Below are positions 15,771 through 28,121 of a stretch of 64,000 nucleotides of DNA, one piece after another. Below the pieces are notes generated by a model that made no database searches, was not told the origin of the DNA, and was given only the letters and a program-made list of their open reading frames with translations. Source of the stretch: Methanosarcina flavescens (GTDB lineage Archaea; Halobacteriota; Methanosarcinia; Methanosarcinales; Methanosarcinaceae); assembly GCF_001304615.2 (NCBI RefSeq), contig NZ_CP032683.1, forward strand, positions 1,984,001-2,048,000, written 5' to 3'. Position numbers and translations under genes: made by a program. Position 1 is the stretch's first letter. Each line of letters opens with the position of its first letter.

Positions 15771-17147
15771 TTAGAATACAAGTCCGAGGTCTTCGAGCTT
15801 CTTTCTTGCTCCTTCATAGACCTGCACGTATTCATCAGTTGGGGTAATGGTTTTTACATCGTAGCACTCCTGGAAAGTCTTTCCAGCGGGTGCATTTGCA
15901 AAGTTCTTCTCGTAAAGTGGCACAAGTGCATCGAGGATCTTGTTAACTTCTGAGATCTCCATGCCTGCAGTTGCTCTTGCAACTTCTCCCATCATTCTGG
16001 CTTCCATACCTGTAGTCTTGTCGGTCACGACACCTTTTGCAGAAGCTACTCCTGAGAGGATTTCTCTGCCTGAGGCTGTGTCGGTCATGGACTGAGCTGA
16101 AGCTTCAAGGAGACACATCTCAGTGCACGGGCCTGCACAGGGGTAATACTGGTTACCTGATAGTAAGTCTGTGAACTCGGAGATTGTTGCACATGCCCAA
16201 CCTGCAATCATCAGGGTTTCCCTGGTGTTGGTTGAGCCCCAGCGGATGTGGACAGGACCATCAAGGTGCCAGCTTGCACTGCTCATAACAACGGAGTTGA
16301 TGTGGGTTGCAATGTCGACTATTGTGGTTTCTTCAATGCCGCCTGCGTAACCTCCGAAGATTGGCATCTGTTCGTCCATAATAATGTCGCTGTTCCCCTT
16401 GTAGTGGGCAATAACGGCGATTGCATCCAGGTCGATTTTGAGTTCGTTAAGCTGGGAGACTTCGTGGCTGTCTGAGGAGATCTGGCCGCCATAGCAGTCA
16501 GATGATATATTTCCCTGAGCGGACAGGGAAGTCTCTGGGCCCTATATGCCCATGCCTGGGCGACCTGCCAATGCGCATGCCTGCTTAATCAGACGGGTTT
16601 CAGTCTTTGCGGCAAGGACTTCATATGGGCTGCCAGGTACTGGGGACTTTCCGCGGACAGAGGTCATGACACCGTCTACAATTGTGTCAACTTCCCTTTC
16701 TAGGGCATAGCTCAGGTGAACAGGTATGAAGACTTCTTCGGAAATCGGAGAGCCTGTAGGTCCACCCTGTATGATTGGCTTTCTCTTGTCACCAACGCTT
16801 CTCTTTCTTACATTTACTGCATCTCTGCCGGTACCGAGTGTGAATTCCTTCTGCACATTGTTGATTGCATCCCAGATTTCGTCTTCGGTATACTTCACAA
16901 TCCTGTGAGTGTCAGTACAGTAGATACCACATTCAAGCAGCATGTCAAAGCCTGCGTGGAAGAGTTTTTCCATCATGTCCTTATCTGTCGGGACAAACTC
17001 TCCCTTGAAGTCAAGACCATACTTCTGCTTGAGTTCCATCGCTTTCATCGGGATCCTCATAAGATCCCATTCATCCTGGGTGCACTTTTCTCCTACTTTT
17101 GCCCTGTCATAGAAGTCAAAGCAATCAAATGATTTTTTGAATGTCAT
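15771..17147 (-). CDS. mtmB: Monomethylamine methyltransferase MtmB, pyrrolysine-containing (in-frame UAG)
   Basis: MtmB transfers the methyl group of monomethylamine to the cobalt of corrinoid protein MtmC. The reading frame is 458 codons plus UAA, exactly the known family length, and contains one UAG at 16542-16544, codon 202, inside the context GRPGMGI-UAG-GPETSLSAQG that is invariant in MtmB. Conventional translation would split it into two frames (201 residues and a C-terminal part), but both halves are highly conserved and intact. Pyrrolysine at this site binds the methylamine as the electrophilic centre. GGGAGG lies upstream of the ATG, 19 bp after mtmC. The decoding genes pylTSBCD are 9 kb away. 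Annotate as one gene, not as a pseudogene. Confidence 0.98.
16542..16544 (-). other. Pyrrolysine UAG codon of mtmB (residue 202)
   Basis: The plus strand reads CTA at these bases, which is TAG in the mtmB frame. It is followed by more than 250 codons of conserved MtmB sequence, so it is a sense codon read by the tRNA-Pyl encoded at 28050-28121. Confidence 0.97.
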
Positions 17148-17166
17148 GCTATTTTGCCTCCCAGGA

Positions 17167-17820
17167 TTATTTCATCATCTCAAGTGCTACTTTTGCAGCC
17201 TCGGCAGCGTTTTCTGCAGTTGCGTCCGCTCCAATCTCGTCAACCCATTTCTTGGATACAGGAGCTCCTCCAAACATGCACTTTACACTGTCCCTGAGGT
17301 TTTCTTCCCTCAACATGTCCATCAGGTCTTTCTGGCCGAGCATTGAGGTTGTCATGAGAGCAGAGCCAACAAGAATGACTTTTTCTCCCTTGTGCTTTGC
17401 TGCTTCTTCAACAACGGTCTCGTTGAGAACGTCAACTCCAAGGTCGAGGATTTTGAAACCGTTTGCTTCGAGCATTGTGCTAACAAGCCTGTGTCCGATG
17501 TCGTGGATGTCTCCTTCTGCAACAAAGGTAATGGCAAGTCCTGCTTCTTCTCCTTCCTTCTTGTTCTTTTCAAGTTCTGGAGTAAGAAGTTCCATTGCAT
17601 TGTTCATTGCTTTTGCAGACATCATAATCTGGGGCAGAAATACTTCGGCCGCTTCAAACTTGTCACCGATAATCTTCATTCCAACAGAAAGGCCCTTTGT
17701 AATAATGTCAATAGCTGGAATTCCTGCATCAAGGGCTTCCTGGGTCAACTGTTTAATGCCTGCGACGTCCTGGTTTACGATTGCATCGCGTAGCTTGTCT
17801 AACATTTCTTGGTTTGCCAT
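17167..17820 (-). CDS. mtmC: Monomethylamine corrinoid protein MtmC
   Basis: MtmC carries a cobalamin that accepts the methyl group from MtmB and passes it to MtbA. The 217-residue protein has an N-terminal helical cap domain (residues 1-90) and a Rossmann-like B12 domain with EGDIHDIGHRL near residue 120, whose DxHxxG histidine ligates cobalt, then VGSALMTTSM and a C-terminal FGGAPVSKKW, the standard B12-binding signature set. It is the first gene of mtmCB. A TATA-like element at 18024-18031 implies a leader of about 180 nt. The stop is UAA. Confidence 0.97.
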   Translation of the reverse strand: MANQEMLDKLRDAIVNQDVAGIKQLTQEALDAGIPAIDIITKGLSVGMKIIGDKFEAAEVFLPQIMMSAKAMNNAMELLTPELEKNKKEGEEAGLAITFVAEGDIHDIGHRLVSTMLEANGFKILDLGVDVLNETVVEEAAKHKGEKVILVGSALMTTSMLGQKDLMDMLREENLRDSVKCMFGGAPVSKKWVDEIGADATAENAAEAAKVALEMMK

Positions 17821-26569: not shown

Positions 26570-27823
26570 TTAGAGACTGGTCGAAATCCCGTTATAGTAA
26601 GATTCGGATCTTGCCGCTCTCTTAATGTTTTTAAAGCCGTGCATAACCTTGAGCAAGCGTTCAAGCCCGAAACCTGCACCTATCCAGGGTTTGTTAATGC
26701 CCCATTCCCTGTCGAGAGGAATTGGACCGATGACTGCCGACGAGAGTTCCAGATTCCCGTGCATTACATCAAGAGTGTCCCCATAGACCATACAGGAATC
26801 CCCTACGATTTCGAAGTCGATTCCCAGGTAATCTAGAAATTCCCTGATCAGAGCCTCGAGATTTTCCCGGGTACAGCCTGAGCCCATCTGACAGAAGTTC
26901 AGCATTGTGAATTCTTCAAGATGTTCTTTGCCTTCAGATTCCTTTCGGTAACAGGGACCAATTTCAAAAATCTTTACCGGATCAGGCAGAACTCTATCTA
27001 ATTTCCGAAGATAGTTATAAAGATTCGGGGCAAGCATTGGTCTCAAGCAGAAATTTTTATCCACCCTGAAAACCTGCTTTGAAAGTTCACTGTCGCTATC
27101 AATGCCCATTCTCTCGACATACTCTGCTGGAATAAGGATAGGAGACTTGATCTCTAGAAAACCCCTGTCCACAAAAAATTTCGTAATATCACGTTCGAGT
27201 TTTCCAAGATAATTTTCCCGCTCATTGGCATAGATTCGCTGCAAATCGCCCTTTCTTCTTACCAGCAGTTCGGACTCAAGTTCCCTGAAAGGCTTTGCCG
27301 CATCCAGAGAAACTTTGTCTTCCGGACTCAGGAGGGCCTCAACCCTATCAAGCTGGCTCCGCGTAAGTGCAGGAGCAGGTACTGATGTAGAAGAAGATGA
27401 ATTTGAAGCCGATTTTGCATGTACAGATCCAGATCTGCTCGCAGATGTCTGTGCAGATACGGGAGTTTCCAGAGGCTTTGGAGCCCTTGAGACTGATTTT
27501 GGCATGGCTTTTTTTACCTTCGGAGCAGAAACCACCTTAACTTTCACACTTGAATTGTTTTCGGTTGATTTTGTGAGGAAATTGCTGATATCTTCATCCG
27601 AAACCTTACAGTACTTGCAGGTTTTCCTGTACTTGTGATGCCTGAATGCTCTGGCTGTTCGGCAGTTCCTTGAATTATTTACAACAAGTCGGTCTCCACA
27701 CGCCATTTCAATATAGATTTTCCTTTTTGAGACTTCGTGATGCTTGATCTTGTGAAGTGTACCAGTTCTGGACATCCAGAGCCCGGTCGCAGATATTAGA
27801 ACATCTAATGGTTTTTTATCCAT
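26570..27823 (-). CDS. pylS: Pyrrolysyl-tRNA synthetase PylRS
   Basis: PylS charges tRNA-Pyl with pyrrolysine. The 417-residue protein has the N-terminal tRNA-binding domain (residues 1-90, [20 protein letters not shown] and a CKYCKV zinc-site segment), a Ser/Ala-rich variable linker (residues 100-155) and a class II catalytic domain. The known pyrrolysine-pocket residues are all present: L268, Y269, N309, C311, Y347 and W380 by counting, equivalent to L270, Y271, N311, C313, Y349 and W382 of M. barkeri. Motif 2 includes [17 protein letters not shown] and motif 3 [15 protein letters not shown]. The linker is two residues shorter than in M. barkeri. The gene follows pylT by about 230 bp. The stop is UAA. 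Confidence 0.98.
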
Positions 27824-28049
27824 AGTGTCACCCCTGGTGAATTAAAAGCCCGGATGATCTCCAAGAAATAGTATTTCAGAATCCCAGCTTACTGAATATA
27901 AGCACGGAGCAGTAATTTGCTAACAGCTACCCGGAAAATAAAAGCGATTCCATAAAGAAGAAACAATTTATAGGCTCTGGGAAAAATCTCCAGATTCATA
28001 AAATATTTCAGTGGAATGTTACATATTACCATTCCGGGATTCAGAAATA

Positions 28050-28121
28050 TGGCGGAAACCCCGGGAATCTAACCCGGCTGAACGGATTTAGAGTCCATTC
28101 GATCTACATGATCAGGTTTCC
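28050..28121 (-). tRNA. pylT: tRNA-Pyl (anticodon CUA), CCA encoded
   Basis: The minus strand from 28121 reads GGAAACCTGATCATGTAG and onward, ending in GGTTTCCGCCA: a 7-bp acceptor stem GGAAACC/GGTTTCC, discriminator G, and an encoded CCA at 28052-28050. The anticodon loop contains CTCTAAA, giving a CUA anticodon that decodes UAG. Unusual tRNA-Pyl features are present: a small D-loop, a single base between acceptor and D stems, a 6-bp anticodon stem and a 3-nt variable loop. The 72-nt length including CCA matches M. barkeri pylT. It is first in the pylTSBCD cluster. TATA-like bases lie near 28162-28169 and 28190. Confidence 0.97.

Follow-up and report, generated by a model that had tools for sequence, protein, structure and literature searches.

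The islands for monomethylamine use in Methanosarcina mazei, M. acetivorans and M. barkeri unite the genes mtmCB1, mtbA, ramA, pylTSBCD and mtmP. The roles of their enzymes are known from the respective protein families, the methyltransferase MtmB using monomethylamine and releasing ammonia. In M. mazei, the gene after mtmB1 is annotated as ‘Monomethylamine permease MtmP’ (PMC7465815). A transporter of another kind, the Rhesus (Rh) protein Rh50, has been described beside methyltransferase genes in Methanomassiliicoccus luminyensis, Candidatus (Ca.) M. intestinalis and M. zhilinae (Matassi 2017, PMC5209957). Here we describe a 64,000-nucleotide stretch of the Methanosarcina flavescens genome (positions 1,984,001 to 2,048,000 of contig NZ_CP032683.1; hereafter the window) in which such an island is followed by a gene for an Rh50-type transporter. 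The genome, termed G000 below, consists of a single contig of 3,283,688 bases. A preliminary description, made from the letters alone, had singled out positions 15771–28121 as a complete methylamine and pyrrolysine island; this span leaves out the Rh gene (14190–15446, minus strand), which lies directly after mtmB in the slot that mtmP holds in relatives. The usual methylamine importer has been replaced here by a relative of the Rhesus ammonia channels, a hint that channels of this family may be of use to organisms living on methylamine.

The Rh gene encodes a protein of 418 amino acids (aa) that matched Pfam Ammonium_transp (PF00909) only and showed no amino-acid permease homology, so that it is not a member of the MtmP family and could at most substitute for MtmP in function. 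Among solved relatives, the best match was Rh50 of N. europaea (1e-44), while RhAG and RhCG scored about 1e-28 and Amt 1e-5; the protein also remained far below the TIGR00836 cut-off for Amt. The reading frame is intact, and the G000 protein shares 89% identity with that of genome G013 and 80% with that of G110.

For comparison within the genus, regions around mtmB copies were taken from other Methanosarcina genomes and the window proteins were mapped on them; the Rh, Amt and mtmP genes were counted in a sample of 31 Methanosarcina genomes. Only three of these (G000, G013 and G015) contained an Rh gene, and in each it was the sole Amt/Rh gene, whereas most others carried one to four Amt genes. 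A match to mtmP was present in 24 genomes, mostly at full length. Wherever the locus was recovered whole, mtmP (467 aa, amino-acid permease family, PF00324) followed the island mtmB after about 300 nt. It formed part of a module, consisting of a 34-aa open reading frame (ORF), mtmP and two membrane proteins of 87 and 78 aa, which lies between mtmB and the convergent gene rfcS (replication factor C small subunit; window 12396–13430, plus strand), the far border of the slot. In G000, G013 and G110 the entire module was gone and Rh stood alone between mtmB and rfcS; no mtmP match was found anywhere in G000 or G013. The spacers of the Rh type and the mtmP type start alike, with a hairpin (CCAGCGAA..TTCGCTGG; window 15710–15740, minus strand) and a T-run 3′ of mtmB that are common to both, and then diverge. 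The 34-aa hydrophobic ORF (MDIWTVINGLIYLLAFGLMGWVLLDASKVSKRRG) just before mtmP was noted on the side. In locus L049 it occupies positions 3211–3312 (minus strand), its changes fall mostly on third codon positions, and it recurs at the same place in L032, L033, L035, L037, L040–L042, L044, L046, L050, L052 and L055. It is reminiscent of the small protein reported beside the trimethylamine permease of M. mazei (PMC11456600).

In a tree of concatenated island genes, G000 and G029 were sisters with full support; G029 carries mtmP and G000 carries Rh, and the more distant G013 has Rh as well. This distribution means that the slot changed hands more than once or that Rh was lost more than once.

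The association of Rh with monomethylamine genes extended well beyond the genus. A contig scan yielded five Rh relatives, three of them directly after mtmB (on two Methanosarcinaceae contigs and one Thermoplasmatota contig), with a fourth starting at a contig end that bore mtmB–Rh spacer sequence. In the Peptococcaceae copy, for which the class sample comprised 15 genomes, Rh lies between pylD and corrinoid/methyltransferase genes, and a TAG-bearing mtmB follows about 3 kb on. A profile search of 238 genomes of the class of Methanosarcina detected Rh in 12 genomes. Ten of these copies followed mtmB immediately and in the same orientation; for an eleventh, the contig broke off at the mtmB–Rh spacer common to the others. 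The sole unlinked copy, that of G114, is divergent and clusters with Rh50 of N. europaea. Among 400 Thermoplasmata genomes, 17 Rh copies were found; in 16 cases mtmB or mtmC lay no more than 1.5 kb off, and in the remaining case mtmC was 1.7 kb away. The mtm-linked Rh proteins formed one clade with full support, to which the G114 protein does not belong. Its 29 sampled members come from Methanosarcinaceae, Thermoplasmata and one Peptococcaceae, and each of them adjoins mtm genes or lies in their vicinity (observed directly for 28, inferred for one), so that the linkage spans phyla. In G161 and G163, mtmB, Rh and mtbA follow each other on one strand with short gaps. Loci L109 (G180) and L110 (G117) each contain a close pair of mtmCB copies, one of which is followed by Rh. 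The Rh and mtmB trees conflict: the mtmB genes of G117 and G121 are of the Methanosarcinaceae type (support 100/100), yet their Rh proteins nest with those of Thermoplasmata, and a tree constraining these to the other Methanosarcinaceae was rejected by the approximately unbiased (AU) test (p = 0.00015). This conflict shows that Rh joined mtmB at least twice. Such repeated recruitment is more than shared ancestry would give and points to function.

The window protein has the twin-histidine pore, the conserved Asp and the inner Phe of the family (D166, H174, F222, H324 and H327), so that the residues by which functional Amt/Rh channels are defined are present. Across the clade, D166, S170, H174, F222 and H327 are invariant and H324 is kept in 28 of the 29 members. 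W287 is invariant as well; it is absent from the two outgroup sequences and is V in N. europaea Rh50. At position 118, which belongs to one of the pair of gate phenylalanines, I or V occurs in 20 members and F in nine, including the window protein. A wider Phe gate had been considered as a possible mark of a pore for methylamine; the argument was dropped, since position 118 is F here and cannot carry it. An AlphaFold model of Rh, set against the family fold of 11–12 transmembrane helices in a trimer and computed from a six-row alignment, reached a mean predicted local distance difference test score (pLDDT) of 48.5, and we built no structural claim on it.

That the Rh protein takes part in methylamine metabolism appears nearly certain to us. 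As to its role, we lean towards an otherwise ordinary island in which Rh50 replaces the MtmP module and carries the amine traffic of the pathway. Rh would then be a two-way amine channel, letting methylammonium or methylamine in and NH3/NH4+ out as a product. The methyl group of monomethylamine would pass from MtmB to MtmC and, by way of MtbA, to coenzyme M, with RamA reactivating the corrinoid. We favour the two-way channel on two grounds: Rh took the permease slot of a genome that lacks mtmP, and the MtmB reaction uses up methylamine while setting ammonia free. Since no Amt is present, Rh may also admit ammonium under nitrogen scarcity. The slot exchange with mtmP is a new argument that adds support for methylamine entry. 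For methylamine as a transported substrate, both the transport and its direction being read from sequence comparison, the case stands at about even or slightly better. A wider proposition is finely balanced, namely that methylamine is the natural substrate of this Rh branch. The branch would then provide dedicated monomethylamine entry for pyrrolysine-dependent methylotrophy in several lineages of archaea and in one bacterium or more, and would have displaced MtmP in some Methanosarcina. In laboratory assays of Amt and Rh proteins, methylammonium serves as a mere stand-in for ammonium; if our reading is true, methylamine would be a physiological Rh substrate.

Several points weigh against this role. 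We know of no member of the Rh clade that has been assayed for transport. The Phe gate of the window protein is unchanged, and no residue marks methylamine as the substrate. Rh is dispensable in the lineage, because the sister species G029 uses mtmP. Nor are the two transporters strictly exclusive. The metagenome-assembled genome (MAG) G015 holds contigs of both kinds: L068 and L104 share the first 24 bases after mtmB, and one then leads to Rh and the other to mtmP. We take this to reflect a branch point in the assembly, downstream of two copies of mtmB or arising from two strains; mtmB itself was not found in this MAG. Both transporters can thus coexist, and strict mutual exclusion, considered at one stage, was abandoned. 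Furthermore, one laboratory could not detect uptake of methylammonium by the Rh50 of N. europaea (PMC3647058), although another assay of this protein with [14C]-methylammonium is listed in a review (PMC10433425).

Published work has described Rh/Amt genes adjoining those for methylamine use and has taken such neighbourhoods as signs of ammonium export (Borrel 2014, PMC4153887; Matassi 2017, PMC5209957), and the most serious competitor of the two-way channel follows this line. Rh would only export the ammonia set free from monomethylamine, and methylamine would enter as diffusing CH3NH2 or through another permease. Such export has been proposed for Methanomassiliicoccales (PMC4153887) and for three methanogens (PMC5209957), and it would suit the linkage of Rh to mtmB, the gene of the ammonia-releasing enzyme. 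It leaves unexplained, however, why Rh replaced the mtmP module and why the genome lost mtmP, and Methanosarcina of the mtmP type release the same ammonia without Rh. We regard export alone as possible, though doubtful. The lack of any Amt in G000, G013 and G015 could instead mean that Rh serves ammonium transport in general and has stepped in for the lost Amt genes, its place beside mtmB being incidental; in N. europaea, and perhaps in Ca. M. intestinalis, Rh likewise stands in for Amt (PMC5209957). An incidental place is hard to square with a clade whose 29 members, drawn from two classes of archaea and one bacterium, all lie near mtm genes, with Rh having joined mtmB independently at least twice, or with the position of the unlinked G114 protein outside that clade; this alternative strikes us as improbable. 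Finally, most of the island is standard for the genus, and Rh could be a chance insertion without methylamine function into a wholly ordinary locus. Conservation already disfavours this idea, which we consider very improbable: the frame is intact, identity to G013 and G110 is high, the slot is the same and the pore residues are kept.

The enzyme that the Rh protein would serve is encoded by mtmB (15771–17147, minus strand; 458 aa), the sole copy in this genome, which is comparatively lean in this respect, whereas many relatives have two or three. The preliminary description had placed a UAG at codon 202, and a single in-frame TAG, probably read as pyrrolysine, indeed lies at 16542–16544 of the minus strand, at the position conserved among relatives and flanked by homologous sequence in both directions. 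The Pfam MtmB match spans it (2–450 of 450 positions, 773 bits), a stop occupies this site in each of the 23 mtmB sequences compared, and a PYLIS_1 element (Rfam RF01982; 16445–16544, minus strand; 96 bits against a cut-off of 70 bits) starts at the TAG. Loss of conservation beyond the codon would have spoken against this view; no drop was seen, and identity was mostly higher after the codon, rising from 92.0% to 93.4% against G001 and from about 45% to about 61% against Thermoplasmata homologs. The sole exception was G029 (95.0% before, 93.4% after). We infer that UAG is decoded as pyrrolysine in this strain. More distant MtmB homologs (about 30% identity) without the TAG were also noticed in L056 (4394–5713), L057 (3408–4772 and 5861–7189), L058 (4916–6214) and L059 (9264–10565), where T, V, I or F takes the place of pyrrolysine in the alignment. 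They are possibly corrinoid methyltransferases for other substrates; non-Pyl MttB proteins that act on other substrates are known.

The decoding genes lie on the minus strand and make up a pyrrolysine set of the Methanosarcina type, with a CUA pylT, a fused pylS and pylBCD. Judged by NCBIfam equivalog cut-offs, all four proteins exceeded their thresholds: PylD (23310–24089; TIGR03911), PylC (24193–25308; TIGR03909), PylB (25286–26338; TIGR03910) and the pyrrolysyl-tRNA synthetase PylS (26570–27823, 417 aa; NF007083). PylS matched solved catalytic domains of PylRS at 3e-161, and its pocket is intact, nine of nine residues being identical (A302, L305, Y306, L309, N346, C348, Y384, V401 and W417 in M. 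mazei numbering). The tRNA-Pyl gene pylT (28050–28121, anticodon CUA) was compared with the copies found in 15 other Methanosarcina loci. Twelve of these were identical in every letter, two differed by one base and one matched over 69 of 72 bases. The earlier assertions that tRNA-Pyl, PylRS and PylBCD are intact and that every pocket residue is present were thus borne out, and the tRNA, whose fold had been named as a possible weak point, is intact and matches those of relatives. In the proposed scheme, PylBCD would make pyrrolysine, the 22nd amino acid, and PylS would charge tRNA-Pyl(CUA) with it, so that the UAG of mtmB could be decoded. A short tandem repeat with a unit of about 26 bases (ATGGCAATACCAGATCACAAAAACAA) occupies 26430–26515 in the pylS–pylB gap. 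An IS200/IS605 element (tnpA and tnpB; 28778–30331) separates pylT from the DUF1638 gene; it was not found in the corresponding gap of L047 and L049.

The remaining methylamine genes were likewise identified by family matches, in agreement with the first description of the locus: mtmC for the corrinoid protein (17167–17820, minus strand; TIGR02370, 289 bits against a cut-off of 215), mtbA for the methylcobamide:coenzyme M methyltransferase (18736–19755, minus strand; NF041608, over cut-off) and ramA for the corrinoid reductive activase (21582–23204, plus strand; TIGR04270, 868 bits, over cut-off). Between mtbA and ramA lies a gene for a CpaM-like S-adenosylmethionine (SAM)-dependent methyltransferase (20197–20898, plus strand; NF043040, 84 bits, below the cut-off of 180), and farther on a DUF1638 gene (30508–31323, plus strand; PF07796). 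The comparison of gene order across Methanosarcina recovered the same island with small variants: mtmC–mtmB, mtbA, ramA and pylSBCD stood together in every genome in which the region was recovered whole, the pyl block was inverted relative to mtmB in six (G003, G004, G005, G012, G018 and G030), and the SAM methyltransferase, present between mtbA and ramA in eight other island loci, and the DUF1638 gene were optional. Together with a 239-aa gene with squalene-hopene-cyclase similarity, the DUF1638 gene, which is syntenic in the genus, is a frequent neighbour of the island. The pyrrolysine and methylamine island itself is thus already known, and in a known arrangement, because the same genes recur together across most of the Methanosarcina examined. 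The neighbourhood had been thought worth comparing on account of three genes: the Rh-type transporter is indeed unusual, whereas the SAM methyltransferase and the DUF1638 gene recur at the same places across the genus and were rejected as unusual features. Elsewhere in the genome we found two mtbB and two mttB-family genes with one TAG each; the enzymes for dimethylamine and trimethylamine are encoded outside the island.

In the open-access literature, we found no account of Rh displacing mtmP, of its link to mtmB throughout the clade or of its recruitment on more than one occasion. The exchange provides natural matched pairs of close species, such as the Rh type G000 and the MtmP type G029, and it bears on ammonia handling, as every Amt gene has been lost from the Methanosarcina genomes of the Rh type.

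Several described systems can be set beside the locus. The cases of Matassi 2017 (PMC5209957) share with it an archaeal Rh50 adjoining methylotrophy genes; they include no Methanosarcina and no comparison of the mtmP slot, and were read as ammonia or gas channels. N. europaea Rh50 (PDB 3b9w and 3bhs) is the closest solved structure and shares the twin-His, Asp and Phe positions of the window protein, but it stems from an ammonia oxidiser and falls outside the methylamine-linked clade. MtmP occupies the same chromosomal slot downstream of mtmB as Rh; however, it belongs to an unrelated protein family and comes with three small conserved membrane-protein ORFs, whereas Rh stands alone. The islands of M. 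mazei, M. acetivorans and M. barkeri have the same genes in nearly the same order, the same tRNA-Pyl and the TAG in mtmB. Unlike them, M. flavescens has a single mtmB, a non-inverted pyl block and, in place of the mtmP module, the Rh gene.

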